Origin: a virus
Strand: one strand, 5' to 3'
DNA: 31,952 nt
IMG/VR virus record: IMGVR_UViG_3300030102_007046
Location: 1-31,952 of that record
The stretch's first letter is position 1, and each line of letters opens with the position of its first letter. The translations under genes and the position numbers were made by a program. Below the pieces are notes generated by a model. It worked only from the letters and a program-made list of their open reading frames with translations, was not told where the DNA came from and did not search any database. Below are positions 16,139 through 31,347 of the stretch, piece by piece.

Positions 16139-16168
16139 GAGACCTGAGCATGTCTCTAAACTGCTCAG
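16139..16168 (+). ncRNA. Leader element family 1, copy 1 (H-type pseudoknot)
   Basis: Stem 1 pairs GAGAC (16139-16143) with GUCUC (16152-16156). Stem 2 pairs CUGAGCA (16144-16150) with UGCUCAG (16162-16168). Because stem 1's 3' strand lies inside the loop of stem 2, the two interlock as a pseudoknot. An A-U pair replaces a G-C pair of the other copies. The ATG at 16150 opens MSLNCS, which in this copy alone stays in frame with the following gene (16189). Confidence 0.65.
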
Positions 16169-16843: not shown

Positions 16844-16870
16844 GGACCTGAACATGTCCTTAAACTGCTC
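16844..16870 (+). ncRNA. Leader element family 1, copy 2
   Basis: Stem 1 pairs GGAC (16844-16847) with GUCC (16856-16859); stem 2 pairs GAACA (16850-16854) with UGCUC (16866-16870) with one A-C mismatch. A competing pairing, UGGAC (16843-16847) with GUCCA (16873-16877), exists only here. The start codon of a short reading frame lies in the element (16854). Confidence 0.6.
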
Positions 16871-18534: not shown

Positions 18535-18563
18535 GGACCTGAGCATGTCCTTAAACTGCTCAG
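18535..18563 (+). ncRNA. Leader element family 1, copy 3
   Basis: Stem 1 pairs GGAC (18535-18538) with GUCC (18547-18550). Stem 2 pairs CUGAGCA (18539-18545) with UGCUCAG (18557-18563), seven perfect pairs. The loop crossing stem 1 is UUAAAC. The MSLNCS frame opens at 18545 and overlaps the main gene out of frame, ending at 18634. Confidence 0.65.
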
Positions 18564-21148: not shown

Positions 21149-21176
21149 GGACCTGAGCATGTCCTTAAACTGCTCA
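21149..21176 (+). ncRNA. Leader element family 1, copy 4
   Basis: Stem 1 pairs GGAC (21149-21152) with GUCC (21161-21164). Stem 2 pairs UGAGCA (21154-21159) with UGCUCA (21171-21176). The MSLNCS frame opens at 21159 and ends at 21227, overlapping the main gene out of frame. Confidence 0.65.
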
Positions 21177-21896: not shown

Positions 21897-21940
21897 CCTG
21901 GGCAGCAGATGCTAACGCAATTTTCTGTGTAAGTCCTAGG
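21897..21940 (+). ncRNA. Leader element family 2, copy A
   Basis: The outer stem pairs CCUGGG (21897-21902) with CCUAGG (21935-21940). After GGGCA comes an inner stem, CAGA (21906-21909) with UCUG (21924-21927), and then the conserved strand GUAAGU before the closing stem. It ends 30 bases upstream of the PcfJ-like gene, with no Shine-Dalgarno sequence between. Confidence 0.65.
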
Positions 21941-21970
21941 CTTTTTCATTACATCACACTACATTGTATT

Positions 21971-23755
21971 ATGTATTTCAATCTTCCTAATCAGCTTGCA
22001 CTCGAAGTTGCAGGCTATGACGCAACACGCAAGAAACTTGCAGCTGCCATGGCTGCAGAAGATCGTAACAAAAACAAACGACAGACTTTCCCTTGTGGTC
22101 GTCCTTCAAATATGTTTCCTACTCATATTGTCAAAGACAATTTGTGGGAAACAACTGTTGAAGCACTTAACAAAGACAAGTCACCAGACAAGTTTCACTT
22201 GTTTACTAAGCCTGTCTTTGGACAGGAACCTGAACCTTTTGCTGTTGTTTACTATCATCGCCAACTGTGGGTAGCTGCATGGCTGCCACGGTCAAAAGAT
22301 GATTCTTATATTTATGGCTTGACGATTGCTTATCGAGATACAGCAGCGGCACGCAAGCAATGCACTGATGCATACATCACAAGTCGTCGCACGATTGGTA
22401 AACATATGTTTGACCAGTTTGAAGAATCCAAAATGCTGCCACGCGTTAAAGATGGTCGTAGTTACTGGTATCGCAAAACAATTCTTATGACTAAAAATAA
22501 TATTGCGGATGGCTATACCGGTAACTACTGGAAAAATCCCAACCGTAACGACCATCGCCTTAAGTCTTACGGCAAGACTTGGCAAATGTATCGTGCTGTT
22601 CAAAAATGGGAGAACCAACTTGCTAAAGATATTCCTCAGTTCAAAGGAGGAACAAACGATGAAATCTTCACTCGGCTTGATCCTGAAAATAATAAGTTTG
22701 AAAATATCTTGTCAGGCTACTGGTCTAGGCCCAGGTGGATGGGTGGTCAAGATAAATACATCCATGATGTAAATGATATTCTTGATAAATTACGTCAACG
22801 TTTTTGTTCAAAATGGATGCAAGATGTGTTTTCTGCAAAGTGGTTTAGATCTTTAATTTTAAATGCAATGAATGACACTAAGGTCATTCATGAAAATACT
22901 ATTACAGAAAATATATACGATCGTGAAGCACTTAAAGCACCTTATGCAATCCTTTATCAGTTTCTATTATCTATTAATCAAATTAAACAAATTTATCATG
23001 ACATTGATCACAATTTGCTTCATTCTAGATTTGATTGGCTTTCTAAATTAGAATTAGATTACAATATTTATAACAACGAGGTTGGTCATCAATGGATGCG
23101 AGAAAACTTGCCTGTTGAATCATTTCTCAACATGCTTTATCAAAAATACAAACAACAATTAGATTTTGACCGACAAAAAAGTGAATCAGGAGGTTATTTT
23201 CTAAGTTGTGACTCTGCTACAGGACAACATCATATTTATTTACACGATTGGCGTGATACTTATCAGATGCTTTGCCAATGCATTACTGCTGGTTTTACTG
23301 ACAACATCAAGCCCAGGCGCTGGCGTTTGATGGAATGGCATGATCATCTCATGGCAGAGACCTGGAAAATCAGTAACGCTAACGTTGACTTACCTCAGAA
23401 GCTATTCCCTCAACCCATCAAGGTTGAGCAATGTAATGACGGTGAAGATGTTAAGTACAGCTTCTTCCAACCTCATGACACACACCAGCTGGCAGCTTGG
23501 GGTCGAGCCGTACGCAACTGCGTTGGCGGCGGCCATGGCTATGCAGATGGAGTCAAGAAAATGAAGCACCTCATTATCTTGACCATGATTGAGAATCAAC
23601 CGCGCTACACCATTCAACTCACTGTTGATAATGGTGTAATGACTGTTAATCAAATCGCTGACATTGGTAACAGAAGACTTAGTGACTTTGAACGTTCCAA
23701 TGTTGAAGACGCTTTCAAACTTGCGTTGACAAAGCGAGAAGAAGAACTAACGTAA
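21971..23755 (+). CDS. PcfJ-like protein, 594 aa
   Basis: The C-terminal part (about residues 502-594) matches the PcfJ-like pattern: an AAWGRAVRNCVGGGHGYADG segment with the Asn-Cys-Val-Gly-Gly core near 515-520, then strands as in KHLIILTMIENQPRYTIQL, a V-N-Q-I motif and a terminal helix. The family was named from conjugative plasmids and occurs in phages; its biochemical role is not known to me. The N-terminal 480 residues are aromatic- and Trp-rich and mostly helical, without a recognised domain. It follows family 2 leader A and precedes a terminator-like hairpin and tRNA-Leu. Confidence 0.75.
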   Translation: MYFNLPNQLALEVAGYDATRKKLAAAMAAEDRNKNKRQTFPCGRPSNMFPTHIVKDNLWETTVEALNKDKSPDKFHLFTKPVFGQEPEPFAVVYYHRQLWVAAWLPRSKDDSYIYGLTIAYRDTAAARKQCTDAYITSRRTIGKHMFDQFEESKMLPRVKDGRSYWYRKTILMTKNNIADGYTGNYWKNPNRNDHRLKSYGKTWQMYRAVQKWENQLAKDIPQFKGGTNDEIFTRLDPENNKFENILSGYWSRPRWMGGQDKYIHDVNDILDKLRQRFCSKWMQDVFSAKWFRSLILNAMNDTKVIHENTITENIYDREALKAPYAILYQFLLSINQIKQIYHDIDHNLLHSRFDWLSKLELDYNIYNNEVGHQWMRENLPVESFLNMLYQKYKQQLDFDRQKSESGGYFLSCDSATGQHHIYLHDWRDTYQMLCQCITAGFTDNIKPRRWRLMEWHDHLMAETWKISNANVDLPQKLFPQPIKVEQCNDGEDVKYSFFQPHDTHQLAAWGRAVRNCVGGGHGYADGVKKMKHLIILTMIENQPRYTIQLTVDNGVMTVNQIADIGNRRLSDFERSNVEDAFKLALTKREEELT

Positions 23756-23783
23756 GCACGGCTTCGGCTTTCCTTGTTCGTAG

Positions 23784-23818
23784 GGTGTTAGATCAGGTGC
23801 TTTAACACCTGATCTTTT
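23784..23818 (+). terminator. Terminator-like hairpin with an alternative pairing
   Basis: AGATCAGGTG (23790-23799) pairs perfectly with CACCTGATCT (23806-23815), and the T-run begins in the 3' arm: a good rho-independent terminator. The overlapping GGTGTTA (23784-23790) can instead pair with TAACACC (23803-23809), which would break it. The two exclusive foldings resemble an attenuator just ahead of the tRNA-Leu gene. Confidence 0.65.
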
Positions 23819-23821
23819 CTT

Positions 23822-23906
23822 GGGAGTGTGGTGGAATCGGTAGACACACCAGACTTAAAATCTGTTGACCATTACGGTCGTGCGAGTTCAAGTCTCGTCA
23901 CTCCTA
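23822..23906 (+). tRNA. tRNA-Leu (anticodon UAA)
   Basis: The acceptor stem is GGGAGUG (23822-23828) with CACUCCU (23899-23905), discriminator A at 23906. The anticodon loop is CUUAAAA with UAA; the long variable arm GACC-AUUAC-GGUC marks a type II tRNA; the T arm carries UUCAAGU. CCA is not encoded. The sequence closely follows bacterial tRNA-Leu(UAA). It may supplement host decoding of UUA, frequent in this AT-rich genome. Confidence 0.95.
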
Positions 23907-23937
23907 CTTCCTGCGAAAAACATTTACTCTTCATTAA

Positions 23938-24195
23938 ATGACAACGTCTCCATCTCCTGGTCCTAGATCAAAAGGTGTTCAATATGTAGTAGGCGACCGT
24001 GTTATGCACAAGCCTGCATTGCAAATGGCACTCAATTCACCATTGCCTGATCGAAAGAAGCAAGGCACAGTTATTGAAGTTATTTACAAAACAAACAAAC
24101 GTGGTGCCAAAATGCCTTATGTTCGTGTTCAATGGGATGACAGCCAAATGCCTGAGTTGCACATGACAATGAGAATTAAACATGTTGATGACTGA
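23938..24195 (+). CDS. Small SH3/KOW-like beta-barrel protein, 85 aa
   Basis: The segment VQYVVGDRVMHKPALQ, then QGTVIEVIYKTNKRGAKMPY and VRVQWDD have the strand pattern of a small KOW/SH3-like barrel (x-G-D-x-V ... G-x-V ... V-x-V-x-W). Such proteins are common in cyanophages, by memory. The leader is G-poor with ACTCTTCATTAA. The 3' end overlaps ThyX. Function unknown. Confidence 0.65.
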   Translation: MTTSPSPGPRSKGVQYVVGDRVMHKPALQMALNSPLPDRKKQGTVIEVIYKTNKRGAKMPYVRVQWDDSQMPELHMTMRIKHVDD

Positions 24196-24862
24196 CGCAA
24201 TGTTTACACCACATGATGTCAAACTTGTTTGGCGCACTGATGATGCTGAACAGATGATTGTTCGTATGGCTCGTGTTTCTGCACCTCAAAATGCAGAAGA
24301 CATGAGTACAGGTCCTAGGCTTCTACGTTATTTGATTAATAATAAACATTGGTCGCCATTTGAAATGGCTTCCATGTGTTTAGAAATTCATACAACTAGA
24401 GCAATTAGTCCACAAATCTTACGTCATCGTTCATTTTCATTTCAGGAATTTTCACAACGCTATGCCAATACTAATTCTATTGGTCGTCCCATCATTCCTC
24501 ATTTGCGCTCGCAAGATCCAAAGAACAGGCAAAACTCCACAGATGATCTTAGAAAACGTTTGGGCAAAATTAAAATTGCAGATTACAACCGTCGCATCTC
24601 AATTCTCTTTGAAGAAGCGGAGCATTTATATCAAGAGATGATTTCTGATGGTGTTGCTAAAGAATGTGCAAGATCTATTTTGCCATTAGCTACGCCTAGC
24701 AAAATGTATATGACAGGAACTCTCCGGTCATGGCTTCATTACATTGATTTACGTTCAGCAAACGGTACTCAACTTGAACACAAACGTATTGCCGACCAAT
24801 GCAAAACAATCTTCAAAGAACAATTCCCAATCATTGCAGAAGCCATGTGGCACAAAAACTAA
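24182..24862 (+). CDS. thyX: Flavin-dependent thymidylate synthase ThyX
   Basis: ThyX makes dTMP from dUMP with methylene-tetrahydrofolate, FAD and NADPH. The signature RHR-x7-S is present as RHRSFSFQEFSQRY (about residues 81-94). Other expected parts are the substrate-region CARSILPLATPSKMYMTGTL and the C-terminal HIDLR-like YIDLRSANGTQLE. At 226 residues the length is normal. It overlaps the preceding gene; three ATGs (24182, 24188, 24200) are possible starts. It would supply thymidine nucleotides for replication with the polymerase at 27447. Confidence 0.95.
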   Translation: MLMTDAMFTPHDVKLVWRTDDAEQMIVRMARVSAPQNAEDMSTGPRLLRYLINNKHWSPFEMASMCLEIHTTRAISPQILRHRSFSFQEFSQRYANTNSIGRPIIPHLRSQDPKNRQNSTDDLRKRLGKIKIADYNRRISILFEEAEHLYQEMISDGVAKECARSILPLATPSKMYMTGTLRSWLHYIDLRSANGTQLEHKRIADQCKTIFKEQFPIIAEAMWHKN

Positions 24863-25238
24863 GAACTTTTTTCCTGAATACTCACATCAATGTGGTTATC
24901 TTCAATTAACTTGTGCCTGTTGTCAAAAGAAATTTTGGCGGCGTGTGGGCCAAGAAAAGGATCGATTACGTAGAAAAATGACAGGTCCTTATTGTTCTAA
25001 CTCTTGTCAATCTAAATCACGTACAAACAAATCAGGTGGTAATTACAAATTAACTCCTGAACTTGTTGCCAAGATGCGTGCATGTGATCGCAAAGGCGTG
25101 CCCATTAAATTAATGATGGAAACTTTTCAAGTGTCTAGATCGTGTATTTATGACATAGTTAGGTATTGTAAATGGAAGGATGTTCCAGATTTAGATGGAG
25201 TTAGAAGAAGCTCTCGACCTGTTATACAAAGGTACTAG
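24834..25238 (+). CDS. Zinc-finger/HTH-like protein, about 134 aa
   Basis: The start is uncertain: the frame is open from an ATG at 24744 deep inside thyX, and I prefer the TTG at 24834. After a short lead come CxxC-type pairs, LTCACCQKKFWRR and then YCSNSCQSK about 30 residues on, as in a zinc ribbon. A helix-turn-helix follows (TPELVAKMRACDRKGVPIKL with FQVSRSCIYDIVRY). Such zinc plus HTH architecture suits a DNA-binding regulator or a homing-endonuclease remnant. Function is inferred from motifs. Confidence 0.6.
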   Translation: MQKPCGTKTKNFFPEYSHQCGYLQLTCACCQKKFWRRVGQEKDRLRRKMTGPYCSNSCQSKSRTNKSGGNYKLTPELVAKMRACDRKGVPIKLMMETFQVSRSCIYDIVRYCKWKDVPDLDGVRRSSRPVIQRY

Positions 25239-25377
25239 TAATGTTGCTATCACTGCAAAAGAAACAGGTGTCACATTAGAAACAATGCAACACCTGCTTA
25301 CTGATTACATTAAACTCAGGCCAGTTGATCCTGATGTTTGGCTAGCCGATGTAGAACTCGGCTGGCCGTGGGTTTGA
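25195..25377 (+). CDS. Small HTH-like protein, 60 aa
   Basis: The segment NVAITAKETGVTLETMQHLL (residues about 16-35) fits a helix-turn-helix, with the Ala-Lys-Glu-Thr-Gly-Val turn. It overlaps the preceding gene by 44 bases, an arrangement that needs checking. The C-terminal part is acidic with two Trp (VWLADVELGWPWV). Probably a small regulator. Confidence 0.5.
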   Translation: MELEEALDLLYKGTSNVAITAKETGVTLETMQHLLTDYIKLRPVDPDVWLADVELGWPWV

Positions 25378-25381
25378 ACTT

Positions 25382-25477
25382 ATGACCGTACATGATTTAG
25401 AACTCATGGTCTTTCTCCTTGCACCAGCCATGTTCATGTCTGTCCTTCTTATATGGACTTTTGCTGCTGGTGGTTAA
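25382..25477 (+). CDS. Tiny single-span membrane peptide, 31 aa
   Basis: A short frame four bases after the previous stop encodes MTVHDLELMVFLLAPAMFMS followed by VLLIWTFAAGG, essentially one membrane helix. Its stop abuts the stop of the minus-strand gene at 25478. Tiny membrane peptides of this type occur both in phages and among photosystem subunits, but no similarity is recognised. It may be a host-membrane modulator. Confidence 0.5.
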   Translation: MTVHDLELMVFLLAPAMFMSVLLIWTFAAGG

Positions 25478-25621
25478 TCAATCGTTGGCAATGCGTTCAC
25501 GATCGAGTTTTGATTCAAACTCTTCTCGTTGACGCTTAAGCCGTTCTTTCATCATCCACTCGGTCAGTGGATCCCGGCGCTCATATTTGACGCCTCGGTA
25601 GGTCAGCTGCTGTGTAGCCAT
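25478..25621 (-). CDS. DUF4278-like small protein, 47 aa, opposite strand
   Basis: Read leftward, the protein starts MATQQLTYRGVKYERRDP. The LTYRGV-x-YE opening matches the cyanobacterial DUF4278 family, whose members begin with a similar L-x-YRGV-x-Y motif. The rest is a charged helix (KERLKRQREEFESKLDRERI). It is isolated on the minus strand between plus-strand genes. Function of the family is unknown. Confidence 0.65.
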   Translation of the reverse strand: MATQQLTYRGVKYERRDPLTEWMMKERLKRQREEFESKLDRERIAND

Positions 25622-25639
25622 GATGTTCTCCGCTAAAGC

Positions 25640-25688
25640 CCAGGTCCCCGTTCCATGGCCTGGTGAATTGCGCCAGCACTATAGCTGG
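25640..25688. other. Two short hairpins in an intergenic gap
   Basis: CCAGG (25640-25644) pairs with CCTGG (25659-25663), and CCAGC (25673-25677) pairs with GCTGG (25684-25688), around loops of fourteen and six bases. This gap must hold the promoter of the minus-strand gene at 25621 and the leader of the gene at 25725. No convincing -10/-35 pair is seen. Confidence 0.35.
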
Positions 25689-25724
25689 TGAACGTACTAA
25701 CATTCTACTGCCACCCAAACTTTT

Positions 25725-26147
25725 ATGCCTGGCACTCCTCGAACCAAACGCGAATATCACTACACAACATCTGAAGTCTTACAAAAGACTCTGATGTCTC
25801 GTGCTGCATTAATTCGTTATGTCAAAGCAGGTAAGTTTCCAGCTCCCAAACTAAAACCTAAAGACATTGGAGCCAAGGGGGCTGATTGGTATTGCAAACA
25901 TGAAGTCAATGAATGGATTGAAAAAAATACTGATTTTGTTTCATGGCGACAGAAAAAAATCTCTGAGACTTTTAATGTCACTATTGAAGCTAAGCAAGTA
26001 AGACAAATTCGTGAAGCTTGCAAACTTCTTAAATGTGACGAATTAGACTTTATCCGCGATGCTGCTATATGGAAAGCAGACCAAGTTAAAAAGCTAACAG
26101 CCAACGAACGTCCATTTGAAAATTATATTGTTGAATATGATGATTAA
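25725..26147 (+). CDS. AlpA/MerR-type winged-helix DNA-binding protein, 140 aa
   Basis: Residues about 13-70, with YTTSEVLQKTLMSRAALIRY, KAGKFPAPKLK and WYCKHEVNEWIEKN, follow the AlpA-like HTH_17 pattern: evaluator helix, recognition helix, G-x-FP-x-P wing and a terminal V-x-EW-x. Such proteins act as phage regulators or excisionases. The C-terminal half is an extra helical domain (QVRQIREACKLLKCDELDFI). The 3' end overlaps the next gene. Confidence 0.7.
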   Translation: MPGTPRTKREYHYTTSEVLQKTLMSRAALIRYVKAGKFPAPKLKPKDIGAKGADWYCKHEVNEWIEKNTDFVSWRQKKISETFNVTIEAKQVRQIREACKLLKCDELDFIRDAAIWKADQVKKLTANERPFENYIVEYDD

Positions 26148-26382
26148 TCTTTTTTCTTTTATTCTTGTTGCAACAATGTGGGTACAAGTCCCTCAATGGA
26201 ATGCTGATTGGTCTAAATGTTCAATAGATGTACCTGATATTGATTGTCATTGGTACATTACTAATCCTGACAATACATTTGGCTCAGGATTTTCCTGGAA
26301 AAATGCACCTTGGTTTAGTGTTGAAGGTCTTTTAGATGTTTCAAAACTTAAAAATACAATGACTAATTTACAAAATCATTAA
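26137..26382 (+). CDS. Small exported or membrane-anchored protein, 81 aa
   Basis: The start is one of two adjacent ATGs (26137/26140) overlapping the upstream stop. The N-terminus (MMINLFSFILVATMWVQVPQ) is a signal-like hydrophobic segment. The remaining domain is Trp/Asp-rich with two Cys ten residues apart (KCSIDVPDIDCHW), which could form a disulfide in the periplasm. Function unknown; a superinfection or envelope role is conceivable. Confidence 0.6.
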   Translation: MMINLFSFILVATMWVQVPQWNADWSKCSIDVPDIDCHWYITNPDNTFGSGFSWKNAPWFSVEGLLDVSKLKNTMTNLQNH

Positions 26383-26390
26383 AGCTTAAT

Positions 26391-26427
26391 CTGGGCAGCA
26401 AATTAGCCAACGTTTGCGTAAGTCCCA
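26391..26427 (+). ncRNA. Leader element family 2, copy B
   Basis: The outer stem pairs UGGG (26392-26395) with CCCA (26424-26427). The inner stem pairs GCAAA (26398-26402) with UUUGC (26413-26417), five perfect pairs that differ from those of copy A while pairing is kept. GUAAGU joins the inner and outer stems. It ends 22 bases before the Gp88-like gene. Confidence 0.7.
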
Positions 26428-26449
26428 CTTAATCACACTGAATTAAATC

Positions 26450-27220
26450 ATGCACACCTTGAAATTTTCCACAGGCAATGCAAAGCTTGGTAAACGTCTC
26501 ATCTTTTCCTTACCAGCAGGTTACACCTGTCCTAACGCTGGTCATTGCAAAACATTTGCTGATCGTACTACAGGTAAAGTCCAAGATTTACCGCAGTCAG
26601 CTCACGCAACTGGACTTGAGTATCGCTGCTTTGCTGCCATGTCAGAGGCACGCAGTAAGAACTGCCGCGATGCGCGGTGGTTTAATTGGGACGCACTTAA
26701 AGAGATCCTTCATTCTGAAGATACAAAAGATCCAGTAGGTGTTATTGCTGATACAATTTCTTACGGAATCTGGCAATACAACAAAGGCCAATTAGTTTAT
26801 GATCTCTGTCGCATCCATGAATCTGGAGATTTCTGGTCTGAGCTTTATTTCCAGGCTTGGTTAGAAGTTGCGCGACAGCATCCCAAAATTAAATTTTATG
26901 CTTACACCAAACAACTCAGCTACTGGCTCAATGCTCAAAGTGACATTCCTTCTAACATGTTTCTCACTGCTTCAGTTGGCGGTAATCTCGATCCTTTACT
27001 CACCAGGTATGCACACATCTTTAAACGTATAGCTCATGTGGTCTACACAGAAGATCAAGCTGCTGATATGGGTCTGGACATTGACCATGACGACAGCCAC
27101 TGTTTTGGTAATAAGCCGTTTGCACTTTTAGTACACAACATACAACGTGCAGGATCTGACGCATCAAAAGCATTAGCTGCACGTAAACGTCAGGGATCTT
27201 GGACAGGTTATTCAAAATAA
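26450..27220 (+). CDS. Gp88-family phage protein, 256 aa
   Basis: The order LIFSLPAGYTCPNAGHCKTF (about residues 17-36), then EYRCFAAMSEARSKNCRDAR and W-x-NWDALKE matches the 'gene product 88' family first noted in mycobacteriophages: a Leu-Pro-Ala-Gly-x-x-CP motif, a distal Arg-Cys-Phe-Ala-A and an RW pair. Cys27, Cys33, Cys60 and Cys72 could hold a metal or iron-sulfur cluster. Later strands (IKFYAYTKQLSYWLN, NMFLTASVGG) suggest an alpha-beta enzyme fold. Biochemical function is unknown. It follows family 2 leader B. Confidence 0.8.
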   Translation: MHTLKFSTGNAKLGKRLIFSLPAGYTCPNAGHCKTFADRTTGKVQDLPQSAHATGLEYRCFAAMSEARSKNCRDARWFNWDALKEILHSEDTKDPVGVIADTISYGIWQYNKGQLVYDLCRIHESGDFWSELYFQAWLEVARQHPKIKFYAYTKQLSYWLNAQSDIPSNMFLTASVGGNLDPLLTRYAHIFKRIAHVVYTEDQAADMGLDIDHDDSHCFGNKPFALLVHNIQRAGSDASKALAARKRQGSWTGYSK

Positions 27221-27235
27221 TTAGTTGCATATTTA

Positions 27236-27271
27236 GATGGAATGGGTACTCTTTACCTGTTCCATCTTTTT
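27236..27271 (+). terminator. Rho-independent terminator-like hairpin
   Basis: GATGGAA (27236-27242) pairs with TTCCATC (27260-27266), with inner GGT/ACC pairs possible, followed by five T. It ends the Gp88-like unit. It also sits nine bases before the GTG I choose for the next gene, so it may act as a leader structure too. Confidence 0.75.
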
Positions 27272-27274
27272 AAT

Positions 27275-27508
27275 GTGTCTTACTTAATTACTGCCATCAT
27301 TGATGGTATTCCTCATGCAGTCCGTCCTAATGTTGCTAACAATTGTTTTGAACTAATTAAAATCAGACGTGACTCAGAAATATCTAAAGCTTTTTGTTCT
27401 CCCAACAAAACTGGTGCTGTTAGTATTCTCAAATGGATAGAAGAAAATGATGCAAAACTTTCTAGTAAAGGACTTGAAGTTCAACCTCAAGCCAAATTCT
27501 TCCACTGA
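27275..27508 (+). CDS. Hypothetical protein upstream of the polymerase, 77 aa
   Basis: The frame is open from an ATG at 27242, but that codon lies in the terminator stem, so I prefer the GTG at 27275, giving MSYLITAIIDGIPHAVRPNV. It has a beta-rich start and a helix (NKTGAVSILKWIEENDAKLS). It overlaps the polymerase gene by 62 bases in another frame. Family unknown. Confidence 0.5.
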   Translation: MSYLITAIIDGIPHAVRPNVANNCFELIKIRRDSEISKAFCSPNKTGAVSILKWIEENDAKLSSKGLEVQPQAKFFH

Positions 27509-29306
27509 AAAGTGGTACGTATTTGATTTAGAAACTAACGGACTTTATGATGATGTTAATGAAATCTTCTGCATCGTTATCCACGATGTCAACAGAAACC
27601 AAACTTTTAGTTATGGGCCTGAGTCTATTAACCATGCTCTTAATCTTATCCGCTCCGCTGATTGTCTTATTGGTCATAACATAGTCTTTTATGACATTCC
27701 TGTTATTAAAAAATTAATTCCTGATTTTAATTTTAACGGCCATGTCATTGACACCCTCATCTGCACCAGGCTCTTATGGCCGAAAGAAAAACTGTACGAC
27801 TTGGATGAAAATCACTACGTCAACGTGCCGAGTGGTCTCAGAGGATCAGCTTCGCTTAAAGCTTGGGGTTATCGTCTCTCAGATAACAAGATTGACTTCA
27901 AAGACTTTTCTGAATTCTCACAGGAAATGCTTGACTACTGCATCCAAGATGTCAACGTTACCAATAAACTCTTCCAAATCTTTCAAAAACAAACCATCGC
28001 AGAGTCTACGCTTTACCTTGAACACATTTTTGCTCAAGCCATTGAGCGTCAAATTAGATCAGGTTTTCCATTTGATGTTGATCAATGTCTTGATTTTGTG
28101 GATGGACTTGAACATCGAAAAAAACAAATAGAAAATAAACTTAAAGAACTATTTCCACCGATTGAACATAAAGAAATATTTATTCCAAAAGTAAATAATG
28201 CAAAACGTGGTTATATCAAAGGTCAACCTTTTGAAAAAATTTATTTAGAAGAGTTCAATCCAGGATCGCGTCAACAAATTGTAGATCGTCTTAAAAAAAA
28301 GTACAACTGGATTCCACAAGCTACCACAGAAAAAGGCAACCCAATTCTTAATGACGATGTCTTAGAAAAACTTCCATATCCAGAAGCCAAACCGCTGTCA
28401 GAATATATGTTGTTGAATAAACGTTTAGGCCAAATCAAAGATGGAAAAAACGCTTGGCTTAAATTGGTTACACCCGACGGTTATATTCACGGCGACGTCA
28501 TTACTAATGGCTGTATTACTGGTCGCTGTAGTCATCGTAATCCAAATACTGGACAAATTCCGGCTGTTTATTCTCCTTATGGAAAAGAATGTCGTTCTCT
28601 TTTTCATGCCCCTGATGGCTGGACTCTCATGGGTTCTGATGCAAAAGCTTTAGAACTAAGATGCCTTGCTGGTTATTTAGCCATCTGGGATATGGGAGAG
28701 TATGCCAATATGGTAATTGATGACTCCATTGATATTCATACCTATAACCAGGAGCAATTTGGTGTCTCTACGCGTGACATTAGCAAACGTCTTTTATACG
28801 CTGTTCTTTATGGCAGTGGAAACATTAAAGCGGGCAGCATTGTTAATCCAAATGAAAAAGATCCGGAGCGCCTTAAAATTCTCGGAAAAAACGCTATCCA
28901 ATCCTTTATGTCTGGAGTACCAGCACTCAAAAAACTCAAAACATCTCTTGCACAAACATTGACATTACGTGGACATCTAATCGGTTTAGATCGTCGTCCT
29001 CTTTATTGCAGATCAGATTTCAAAGCATTAAATGTTTTATTACAAGGAGCTGGTGCTGTAATTATGAAACAAGTTGTAATTAATATTCATAATGCATTAA
29101 CAGCCAACGGTTTGCATTATGGAGAAGATTGGCATCAACACGCCATGATTCATGATGAAGTTCAGATGTCTTGCCGTCCTGAATTGATTGGTATAATTCA
29201 ACCTTTAGTTTTGCAAGCTTATGAAGATGCTGGTAACTTTTTTGGTTTTAGATGCAAAATTGAAGGTGATGTAAAAACTGGATATAACTGGTCAGATACA
29301 CATTAA
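27447..29306 (+). CDS. DNA polymerase, family A, T7-like, with 3'-5' exonuclease
   Basis: The 619-residue enzyme has an N-terminal DnaQ-like exonuclease: Exo I FDLETNGL (Asp27, Glu29), Exo II GHNIVFYD (Asn78, Asp83), Exo III YCIQD (Tyr164, Asp168). The polymerase domain has motif A GSDAKALELR (Asp398), motif B RDISKRLLYAVLYGSG (Arg443, Lys447, Tyr451, Tyr455) and motif C IHDEVQ (His569-Asp570-Glu571). Layout and motifs follow T7 gene 5. Tyr451 stands at the position of E. coli Pol I Phe762, as Tyr526 in T7. It probably replicates the phage genome with the SSB downstream. The start may be the first or second of two adjacent ATGs. Confidence 0.95.
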   Translation: MMQNFLVKDLKFNLKPNSSTEKWYVFDLETNGLYDDVNEIFCIVIHDVNRNQTFSYGPESINHALNLIRSADCLIGHNIVFYDIPVIKKLIPDFNFNGHVIDTLICTRLLWPKEKLYDLDENHYVNVPSGLRGSASLKAWGYRLSDNKIDFKDFSEFSQEMLDYCIQDVNVTNKLFQIFQKQTIAESTLYLEHIFAQAIERQIRSGFPFDVDQCLDFVDGLEHRKKQIENKLKELFPPIEHKEIFIPKVNNAKRGYIKGQPFEKIYLEEFNPGSRQQIVDRLKKKYNWIPQATTEKGNPILNDDVLEKLPYPEAKPLSEYMLLNKRLGQIKDGKNAWLKLVTPDGYIHGDVITNGCITGRCSHRNPNTGQIPAVYSPYGKECRSLFHAPDGWTLMGSDAKALELRCLAGYLAIWDMGEYANMVIDDSIDIHTYNQEQFGVSTRDISKRLLYAVLYGSGNIKAGSIVNPNEKDPERLKILGKNAIQSFMSGVPALKKLKTSLAQTLTLRGHLIGLDRRPLYCRSDFKALNVLLQGAGAVIMKQVVINIHNALTANGLHYGEDWHQHAMIHDEVQMSCRPELIGIIQPLVLQAYEDAGNFFGFRCKIEGDVKTGYNWSDTH

Positions 29307-29319
29307 AAATTGCAAATAA

Positions 29320-29348
29320 CTGGGCAGCCTCTAAGGTGTAAGTCCCGG
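29320..29348 (+). ncRNA. Leader element family 2, copy C
   Basis: The outer stem pairs CUGGG (29320-29324) with CCCGG (29344-29348). The inner stem pairs GCCU (29327-29330) with AGGU (29334-29337) around the three-base loop CUA. GUAAGU is conserved. This is the shortest copy. It ends 27 bases before the SSB gene. Confidence 0.7.
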
Positions 29349-29375
29349 CTCATCCGTTGATTTTTTTATTAGACC

Positions 29376-30251
29376 ATGAACAAAATCTATGTTTCCGTTC
29401 AAACCATTGAAGATCCTCGTCAGGTATACGTGGATTCATCACGAACTAATGTGTTGGTAAAGGCTTTGATTCCTCCTTCTAAGGACAAAGCACCTACTCC
29501 TGTTACCATTCACATTTACACTCCGGCAGAACAAACACGAGTAATGCAAGCTGTTAAAACTAACAATCATTTATTTATTGCAGGCGGAAAACTCCGTCAT
29601 AATCTTGATTCTCGTGAATACAGCATTCATGGCGGATCAATTGCCATTGTTTCACCTGAAACTTTTCCCATTATTAACGAAGTTGTATTAGGCGGTCGGT
29701 GTATTAAAGACATTGATCAAAGCGATAGCCGTGCTTTTAAACGCACAGACAGTGGCTATGTAATTTGTAATCAAACTCTGTCAGTTAATACTGGTAAAAA
29801 CAAAGCAGATCTGTTTAATTTCTTTGCTATCAATAAAGTTGATGATCGCTTTAACAAAGCCGAGTATCTTGCCAGTCTTACTCGTAACGGTACTGGTCTG
29901 ACAATTTCTGGTCGTGTAGTAACCGATGCATGGACTGATAAAGCAACAGGTCAAGCTAAAAGCAAGACACAAATTCAAATGTACGACATGACCCTGGCAC
30001 CAAAACCTAAAGCTGGAACCATTCAACCTAGCACTGAGTTACCTGCTAACACTCCTGTGCAATCACTTTGGGGTGGTCAAACACAAGCTGACACTGTTGA
30101 AGCAGGTGCTGAGACTTTTGTTTCTGAGTCGCCACATCAAGCAGCTATTACTACACCGAAAGGTCAAGTGTTAGATAGCCAGCAACCAGCAGCCGTTGGA
30201 TCAATTAATTCTTCTAATGATGCATGGGATGACAACGACGCACCATTCTAA
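29376..30251 (+). CDS. ssb: Single-stranded DNA-binding protein with tandem OB folds
   Basis: The second half of the folded part (about residues 102-208) follows bacterial SSB: GGRCIKDID, then NKADLFNFFAINKVDDRF, AEYLA, GTGLTISGRVV and an Ile-Gln-Met strand. Residues about 5-93 look like a further, diverged OB fold. A long Thr/Gln/Ala linker (209-283) leads to the acidic tip WDDNDAPF, like the DDDIPF tip of E. coli SSB that recruits repair and replication partners. It lies just after the polymerase under leader C, so the two probably act together at the fork. Confidence 0.8.
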   Translation: MNKIYVSVQTIEDPRQVYVDSSRTNVLVKALIPPSKDKAPTPVTIHIYTPAEQTRVMQAVKTNNHLFIAGGKLRHNLDSREYSIHGGSIAIVSPETFPIINEVVLGGRCIKDIDQSDSRAFKRTDSGYVICNQTLSVNTGKNKADLFNFFAINKVDDRFNKAEYLASLTRNGTGLTISGRVVTDAWTDKATGQAKSKTQIQMYDMTLAPKPKAGTIQPSTELPANTPVQSLWGGQTQADTVEAGAETFVSESPHQAAITTPKGQVLDSQQPAAVGSINSSNDAWDDNDAPF

Positions 30252-30267
30252 GTAAACTCCCTTTATA

Positions 30268-30302
30268 GCTAGGCATCCTCCCCGACGGTGTAAGTCCTAG
30301 TT
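30268..30302 (+). ncRNA. Leader element family 2, copy D
   Basis: The outer stem pairs CUAGG (30269-30273) with CCUAG (30296-30300), extendable by a G-U and an A-U pair. The GGCA and GUGUAAGUCC words match the other copies, but the inner stem is weak here, with only two or three pairs. It lies 24 bases before the TTG start of the DUF5895-like gene. Confidence 0.6.
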
Positions 30303-30324: not shown

Positions 30325-31347
30325 TTGACTCCTACCAAGACCACATCACTCGCTAAACGCAAACTGGATTCGTTCCAGATGTTCAACGACAAGAAGTTTG
30401 TCTCTGGCTACCAGCCTCTTGTTACTATTCAACCACTTAACAAATCAAAGAAGCGCGGTTGGTTTATCCGCAATTCTGATCTCGACAATTGCGGTTGGAC
30501 TGCAACTGTAGATGATTTTGAAAAAGGCTCTGTCATTTTTGACTACGAGCAAACGTTTGGCATGCCGCCAAATACCAGCAAAGAACAGGGTCTGAACTTC
30601 CAGGCTCCTCGTGTACAGATCTTGCTGCGTTCACCACTGATGGTTGAAGAAACCGGTGGTATGCGTCAAGTCATTGGTACCTTTGAAGATGACGAGGTCA
30701 AAGCACTCTTTGACAACGACAAGCTTGCCTCTGAACTTGCTTCAAGTAAAGGGGAAATGCGAAAGCGTCATTACGCTGTACGTACCAAGTATCTTGTTTA
30801 TCTTCTAACCAAAGAGAACAAACGAGCACACAAAATTCCTATGGTGCTGACTATTAAAGGTCTGAATGGTACAGACCTTTCTGAAAAAATTAAGATGTAT
30901 GAAAAAGAGATGAGCAAGTGCTTGTCTAAGGCTCTTGATACTGAGGTGCCTATGCAGTACAACGAACAGTTCTACGCAACTACTGTCTTCTGTCCTCAGT
31001 TGGTAAGTGACATGCGTGGTGCCAATGGCGTTGAAATCTGTGCTGTTGAATCATTCGACATCCCTGAATACCAGGATCAAGATGCAGCCCTCGAATCCCT
31101 CGACCGACTGTCCATCCCTGATAACGACCGAGAATCAACTTGGAAGTTTCAAGAGATGTACAACGACTACATCAACCAACATTCCAAACAAGATGCTAGT
31201 CGGCTTGGCGGTGCGTATGGGATCAAAGAAGGAGTTGAGATTCTTCCACAATCTCGAACCGTGCCAGCAGAAGTTGTTGATGAAGGACCAATCAAACTGA
31301 TGGCAGGTGCAACCAAGGATTCACTTGGTGCAGATTCCCATTTTTGA
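30325..31347 (+). CDS. DUF5895-like cyanobacterial/phage protein, 340 aa
   Basis: The protein starts with TTG (30325), giving MTPTKTTSLAKRKLDSFQMF. The N-terminal part has VTIQPLNKSKKRGWFIRNSD and FEKGSVIFDYEQTFG, and the middle has VRTKYLVYLLTKENKRAHKI and VLTIKGLNGTDLSEKIKMYE. I recall this pattern from a family named DUF5895 in cyanobacteria; that naming is from memory and uncertain. Function is unknown, though its place after SSB suggests a replication or recombination accessory. It follows leader D. The 3' end overlaps a minus-strand gene. Confidence 0.6.
   Translation: MTPTKTTSLAKRKLDSFQMFNDKKFVSGYQPLVTIQPLNKSKKRGWFIRNSDLDNCGWTATVDDFEKGSVIFDYEQTFGMPPNTSKEQGLNFQAPRVQILLRSPLMVEETGGMRQVIGTFEDDEVKALFDNDKLASELASSKGEMRKRHYAVRTKYLVYLLTKENKRAHKIPMVLTIKGLNGTDLSEKIKMYEKEMSKCLSKALDTEVPMQYNEQFYATTVFCPQLVSDMRGANGVEICAVESFDIPEYQDQDAALESLDRLSIPDNDRESTWKFQEMYNDYINQHSKQDASRLGGAYGIKEGVEILPQSRTVPAEVVDEGPIKLMAGATKDSLGADSHF

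Follow-up and report, generated by a model that had tools for sequence, protein, structure and literature searches.

Four copies of one fold upstream of replication genes

Four genes of a virus fragment of 31,952 nt (IMG/VR record IMGVR_UViG_3300030102_007046; this whole stretch of DNA is referred to as the window) are each preceded by a short element, here called family 2, in which an outer stem is combined with the word GGCA, an inner hairpin and GTAAGTCC. A first-pass annotation of this DNA read the four elements as a functional RNA and proposed that the genes behind them form one regulon read by one factor or ligand. The locus thus raises two questions: whether the elements are indeed one RNA, and what such an RNA might do in front of these genes.

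A pattern scan of the window found GTAAGTCC four times on the + strand and not once on the − strand, every time in the context GGCA-N-GTAAGTCC, within the described fold and at the four places annotated before (Table 1). A roughly calibrated covariance model built from relatives matched the window at E ≤ 1 at exactly the same four sites. All four outer stems pair, as had been claimed, with one G.U each in copies 1 and 3. The inner hairpins were said to pair in three of the four copies; the pairing stands and the count was slightly low, because all four pair once a U.U or G.U closing position is allowed, the inner hairpin of copy 4 consisting of a U.U closing pair followed by CC/GG. Genes were called by simple open reading frame (ORF) rules, and Pfam bore out the PcfJ-like, Gp88-like, SSB and DUF5895-like assignments downstream. 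The association recurs in relatives, where the element is found at 14 Gp88, 14 DUF5895, 10 PcfJ and 9 SSB loci.

The window and IMG/VR contig 3300030012_003861 are near-identical where they overlap, and the isolate closest to the window by SSB is Synechococcus phage S-EIV1. Isolates were reached via proteins, because 20 concatenated elements had no BLASTN match among phage isolates.

Pairing is kept while the stems change

We gathered 359 non-redundant family 2 copies in at least 172 fetched phage loci. Many of these loci overlap or are related and several contigs are fragments, so that the counts given here do not equal numbers of independent events. The copies consist of an outer stem, a fixed asymmetric internal loop (GGCA / RUAAG-N-CC) and a variable inner hairpin, about 25–60 nt in all, with inserts of 6–45 nt. 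When IMG/VR was scanned for the core enclosed by the outer stem CTGGG/CCCAG, at least 120 loci were found, and the compensated stem CTAGG/CCTAG was present at 85 loci, whereas a control with the same letters and one broken pair (CTAGG/CCCAG, A.C) gave 3.

Pair statistics free of selection bias were drawn from loci fetched by protein homology only. Here, 43 of 48 copies picked on the core and inner stem alone also formed each of the three further outer pairs, and among copies picked on the outer stem inner pairs 2–5 were Watson–Crick in 70/73, 58/71, 35/45 and 27/43, far more than by chance (shuffling gave means of 36, 25, 14 and 11). These loci provide a cleaner test than a gapless 48-sequence alignment, since the latter was selected with an outer-stem condition; in that alignment both sides change at 8 of 10 pairs, and the covariation score of 0.355 (vs 0.140) was reached by 0 of 500 shuffles, slid versions scoring 0.145 at most. 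Collectively, these data show strong selection for pairing. Compensatory changes preserve the base pairs, the copies lie in sense orientation and at a constant position relative to genes, and we are nearly certain that the family 2 elements are one family of small structured RNAs. The step from covariation to a functional RNA in the first-pass annotation is thereby strongly supported, and neither of the outcomes that it had named as refutations, a confident Rfam match or homologues without pairing, appeared.

The fixed core reads GGC[A/g] – inner hairpin – [G/a]UAAG-N-CC, the permitted variants being A to G after GGC and A in place of the first G of GUAAG. Our scan demanded GGC, UAAG and CC, and covariance-model matches beyond that scan preserve all three almost always. 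UAAG is followed by a variable base (T>C>A>G) that is apparently bulged. At the first inner position 180 of 286 copies have U.U, the remainder mostly G-C or C-G, and the inner loops include UUCG and GNRA tetraloops. Minimal copies measure about 25 nt; for the shortest ones (5 plus 2–3 bp) processing by RNase III is unlikely. A resemblance of GGUGUAAGUCC to the 16S decoding helix (GGUGAAGUCG) may offer a lead.

A leader RNA without relatives in Rfam

Rfam 15 gave no convincing match on the element at the gathering threshold or at E ≤ 5, and a known Rfam family was rejected on these grounds. A host-genome element was likewise rejected after two specific patterns gave 0 matches in the bacterial and archaeal genomes of 84,980 species; other inner-stem forms were not part of that scan. 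The open-access literature on structured RNAs and on S-EIV1 did not contain the motif, most subscription journals lying outside the search. The cyanophage RNA motifs manA, wcaG and PhotoRC-II (RF01745, RF01761, RF01717), described by Weinberg et al. in 2010 and held in Rfam (PMC2864571), are comparable as structured RNAs in potential 5′ untranslated regions or leaders of cyanophage and marine sequences. In contrast to them, family 2 precedes replication, capsid and tRNA genes, and Rfam scans with these models report none at the elements. We class family 2 as a cis-acting phage leader RNA, unusual in the breadth of phage groups that carry it, in its copies abutting tRNA genes and in its exchangeability with a pseudoknot.

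A number of pattern matches were discarded as chance or decoys. They are the conserved antisense coding match CTTGAGGYAGGACTTCCATTCCGTAAGTCC, those inside genes (loci L043, L183, L202 and L231) and one from gut-type phage contigs (L230) that is probably due to chance.

Copies stand before start codons or at tRNA ends

The outer stem usually starts 1–5 nt past the upstream stop codon, and family-wide the start codons peak 24–35 nt downstream of the core. Among 99 copies without a nearby gene end, an ATG gene follows in 45, and because 38 of these ATGs still lie at 20–36 nt, the spacing to the start codon is independent of that to the upstream stop. The spacers contain 5–6% G and are rich in TCAA/CAAC, words resembling a Shine–Dalgarno sequence occur in 12 of 217 of them, and start regions fold more weakly behind elements than in other genes (−4.0 vs −6.9 kcal/mol). 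No −10/−35 promoter signal was found upstream of the elements.

A further 29 copies finish 1–4 nt before a tRNA gene, which is tRNA-Leu(UAA) in 28 of them. The element thus lies at the 5′ edge of a functional segment whether this is an ORF or a tRNA. In full contigs of the S-EIV1 group, 1–9 copies lie on one strand of one segment, the replication arm. In the window itself, a perfect hairpin, GATCAGGTGCTTTAACACCTGATC (23795–23822, +), stands immediately upstream of tRNA-Leu(UAA), where relatives have a family 2 site; its loop resembles the hairpin of the arrays of the S-LBS1-like group described below.

Family 2 is exchanged for a predicted pseudoknot

A second leader of the window, family 1, reads GGACCTGAGCATGTCC-TTAAACT-GCTC and is predicted to be able to form an H-type pseudoknot. 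It is present at 49 IMG/VR loci, and one relative (L033, position 2209) has a compensated second stem (GGAC/GTCC). Among Gp88 orthologues, 22 leaders are family 1 pseudoknots and 19 belong to family 2; two small-protein families are also mixed between the leader families (8 vs 24 and 2 vs 34), all of these counts including overlapping loci. The distance to the ATG is similar for both kinds of leader on orthologous genes. This exchange suggests that two folds do the same job, and it argues against a factor specific for a single fold being the whole story.

Unrelated Synechococcus phages carry the element

In the S-EIV1 group, leaders also precede other small proteins, ArdC/IrrE-like genes and a phage-encoded small protein similar to the C-terminal domain of RNA polymerase alpha. 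The latter likeness, seen at L117 (position 7866) and in relatives, lies below the cut-off (PF03118, E=0.006). In a group of myoviruses with 65% capsid protein identity to S-CBWM1, a single copy precedes the major capsid gene (16 loci). The element was also found in a T4-like group (gp6 74% identical to S-SM2) and a T7-like group (RNA polymerase 68% identical to S-CBP1). In an S-LBS1/S-2L-like group, 2–6 copies alternate with a second hairpin, GCCTG-UACUUAA-CAGGC, which itself varies with pairing retained, in a noncoding stretch of about 700 nt. We conclude that the element reaches beyond a single replication regulon.

These arrays (L244 2916–3531, L250, L216, L253, L265, L268, L254, L263, L280 and L273) lie between two conserved genes of S-LBS1-like phages, and their variable number of units (2–6) are made of family 2, a hairpin CTG-UACUUAA-CAG and T/C-rich linkers. 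By our reading, some units hold tiny ORFs with a YKF[AG]CT end. They may represent a sponge RNA or a precursor RNA.

Wherever a host is recorded, the nearest isolates of all carrier groups infect Synechococcus. The isolate S-EIV1 itself has two confident copies (record positions 41436–41478 and 40726–40787, − strand), and a single weak candidate was found in phage Bellamy (E=0.0018). Elsewhere in the S-EIV1 genome (KJ410740.1, 65517–65540, +) GGCAGCACTTCGGTGTGTAAGTCC resembles the core, lacks a matching outer stem and lies 187 nt before a gene; it is perhaps a decayed or chance copy.

An all-against-all comparison, in which several contigs were fragments, found no informative protein family common to all carrier groups; the most widely shared clusters were one of low-complexity, tail-fibre-like sequence and another of a large protein that two groups lack. 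That unrelated Synechococcus phages share the element and no informative protein points to host machinery. A strongly covarying RNA spread over phage groups with few or no shared proteins, and absent from the bacterial genomes searched, points to a common answer to a host-imposed demand on viral RNA. The earlier proposal, in which a single factor or ligand reads one replication regulon, is not well supported, given the other small genes, the tRNA cases, the capsid gene, the arrays, the fold swap, the lack of a visible expression platform and the lack of an informative shared protein.

A possible 5′-border element using host machinery

Our preferred explanation, a tentative one, is that the element is a cis-acting 5′-border or leader element that uses host machinery, its mechanism being inferred. 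The compact fold would mark the beginning of the downstream functional RNA segment, gene or tRNA, and would define or protect its 5′ end against host RNase E and the 5′–3′ exonuclease RNase J, either alone or with a bound host protein. The next ~27 nt, nearly G-free and unstructured, could then serve as a landing strip for the ribosome, which would need such an open strip where a Shine–Dalgarno sequence is missing; a tRNA would require none. The family 1 pseudoknot would do the same job with another fold. We favour this explanation because it unites most of what was observed: selection at the RNA level, the fixed core, the constant start distance, the contact with tRNAs, the exchange of folds, the sharing among unrelated phages of one host group and the arrays. 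In particular, the 29 copies 1–4 nt before tRNA genes suit a 5′-border element and not a purely translational one. RNase J, a 5′–3′ exonuclease of non-triphosphorylated RNAs, is found in every sequenced cyanobacterium, combined with RNase E (PMC10989914). Host RNase E is raised by a cyanophage during infection, and antisense RNAs, thought to be protective, cover its transcripts almost fully (PMC9692554).

Several observations weigh against a border or leader element of this kind. In front of capsid genes the distance to the start is 50–54 nt and not ~30. Among confirmed cyanophages of the carrier groups, some are without the element. No confident copy was found in S-CBWM1, S-TIM5, S-SM2, S-RIP2, S-SBP1 or S-LBS1. 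That the core is invariant suggests specific recognition, something that a simple stability hairpin could do without, and the choice of a host over a phage factor rests on incomplete contigs.

The exonuclease-resistant RNAs (xrRNAs) of RNA viruses and the 5′ stabilising hairpins of bacterial mRNAs are also compact folds bordering functional RNA, in which different folds have the same function. Unlike these, family 2 belongs to prokaryotic DNA phages, and the likeness is one of placement, sequences having been compared through Rfam only. An improbable but more far-reaching version of the border element would have the two unrelated folds act like viral xrRNAs, as interchangeable RNA borders that block RNase J or steer RNase E and so carve a polycistronic early transcript into individually protected mRNAs and tRNAs; the tandem S-LBS1-like arrays would be decoys or buffers for the same machinery.

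The function is directly testable, since the element is small, recurs 1–9 times per contig and is present in the isolate S-EIV1. If it protects phage mRNAs that lack a Shine–Dalgarno sequence, or starts their translation, this would explain the expression of these genes and provide a compact expression part for cyanobacterial engineering. In annotation, the element could link aquatic viral contigs to picocyanobacterial hosts.

Other explanations

The nearest rival is a translation enhancer, followed by an operator of the gp32 kind, antitermination and a riboswitch. As a translation-initiation element, the fold would recruit or position the 30S subunit, or keep the adjacent strip open, in place of the missing Shine–Dalgarno sequence. 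The constant ~30-nt distance to the AUG, the G-free, unstructured spacer and the presence of copies before genes expected to need high output (major capsid, SSB) are all in its favour. We nevertheless consider it doubtful, as the copies adjoining tRNA genes have no start codon to serve, the S-LBS1-like arrays are noncoding, and element-less genes of the same contigs also mostly lack a Shine–Dalgarno sequence. A phage operator regulon, in which the core is bound by one phage protein, for instance SSB or some other early product, and the genes are thereby repressed or activated as with T4 gp32 or RegA, would account for an invariant internal loop amid free stems, which looks like a protein site, and for the restriction of copies in S-EIV1-like phages to the early/replication arm, with SSB among the targets. 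The T4/RB69 gene 32 translational operator is a pseudoknot (~28-nt fold) followed by a less structured strip to the start codon (PMC535899), and in family 2 too a fold is followed by an unstructured strip into the initiation region of phage replication genes, SSB among them, family 1 being a predicted pseudoknot. Family 2 differs in being a hairpin with an internal loop that precedes many unrelated genes and tRNAs in several phage groups, and it has no noted UUAAA repeats, no Shine–Dalgarno sequence and no known binding protein. Such an operator is unlikely: the same core recurs in groups with different replication proteins, where the sole cluster present in most is low-complexity and tail-fibre-like, single copies stand before capsid or ArdC-like genes, other copies abut tRNAs, the element is swapped with an unrelated pseudoknot, and it does not overlap the start region.

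The remaining candidates fare worse. HK022 put and lambda nut are short structures of nascent RNA that recur along the early transcripts of phages, and a similar antitermination or pausing element read by host RNA polymerase would fit multiple sense-strand copies along one long early segment, also before tRNAs and irrespective of gene identity. In contrast to put and nut, to which no likeness was noted, family 2 is tightly spaced to start codons and tRNA 5′ ends, which this explanation leaves unaccounted for; moreover, cyanobacteria are without a known Rho (PMC13289151), which removes a main reason for processive antitermination. Such an element is very unlikely here. Still harder to credit is a metabolite riboswitch, for nucleotides for instance. 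The compact conserved internal loop of family 2 and the early and nucleotide-related genes nearby would suit one, but the targets are unrelated, capsid and tRNA genes included, Rfam holds no relative, and the element lies outside the initiation region. No conserved expression platform was seen in the G-poor, weakly folded spacers, which were given no dedicated scan for terminators or alternative folds. A DNA-level feature, be it a promoter, a protein site or a repeat, is almost certainly not the answer. Several copies per genome would be expected of it, but the stems and loops differ freely in sequence and length with pairing retained, copies occupy one strand only, and there is no conserved sequence at a fixed distance independent of pairing; the scan of compensated vs mismatched stems and the missing promoter signal led us to reject it.

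Features of the window and minor observations

Table 1. Leader elements of the window and the genes behind them (distances are from the core CC to the start codon)
Feature	Position	Strand	Description	Basis
Family 1 leader GGACCTGAGCAYGTCCNTAAACTRCTC	16142–16168, 16844–16870, 18535–18561, 21149–21175	+	copy at 16142 is the compensated AGAC/GTCT version	
Element 1	21897–21940	+	outer stem CCTGGG/CCTAGG; core GGCA..GTAAGTCC; inner stem (G.U) CAGA/TCTG; 24-nt insert; upstream of PcfJ-like gene	sequence, pattern scan, covariance model E=2.6e-4
Spacer of element 1 to ATG	21941–21970	+	without Shine–Dalgarno sequence; distance 34 nt	sequence, family-wide spacer statistics
PcfJ-like gene, 594 aa	21971–23755	+	element also in 10 relatives	Pfam PF14284, E=2.6e-5, 24.5 bits, just below 25-bit cut-off
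Element 2	26391–26427	+	outer stem TGGG/CCCA; inner stem GCAAA/TTTGC; upstream of Gp88 gene	sequence, covariance model E=6.4e-3
Gp88 gene	26450–27220	+	distance 24 nt	GP88 PF17338, E=2.3e-39
Element 3	29320–29348	+	outer stem CTGGG/CCCGG (one G.U); inner stem (G.U) CC/GG plus U-A; upstream of SSB gene	sequence, covariance model E=7.4e-4
SSB gene	29376–30251	+	distance 30 nt	Pfam PF00436, E=6.9e-7; PHROG 44, E=3.4e-14
Element 4	30268–30302	+	outer stem CTAGG/CCTAG with G.U outside; inner stem U.U then CC/GG; upstream of DUF5895 gene	sequence, covariance model E=4.7e-10
DUF5895 gene	30325–31347	+	TTG start, distance 27 nt; ATG there in relatives	Pfam PF19247, E=1.9e-14

A word written AACAGCCAAC or ACAGCCAACAAC recurs in several spacers and nearby genes of the window (about 15655, 15882, 16126, 18134, 21497 and 26093, +). 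The window also holds a match to the Glutamine-II (downstream-peptide) riboswitch above the Rfam gathering score (25639–25697, −; 56.8 bits). Further matches above that score occur at L018 (9430–9483, −) and L023 (9878–9929, −). All of these lie opposite to the strand of the replication genes, and no evident long ORF follows them.

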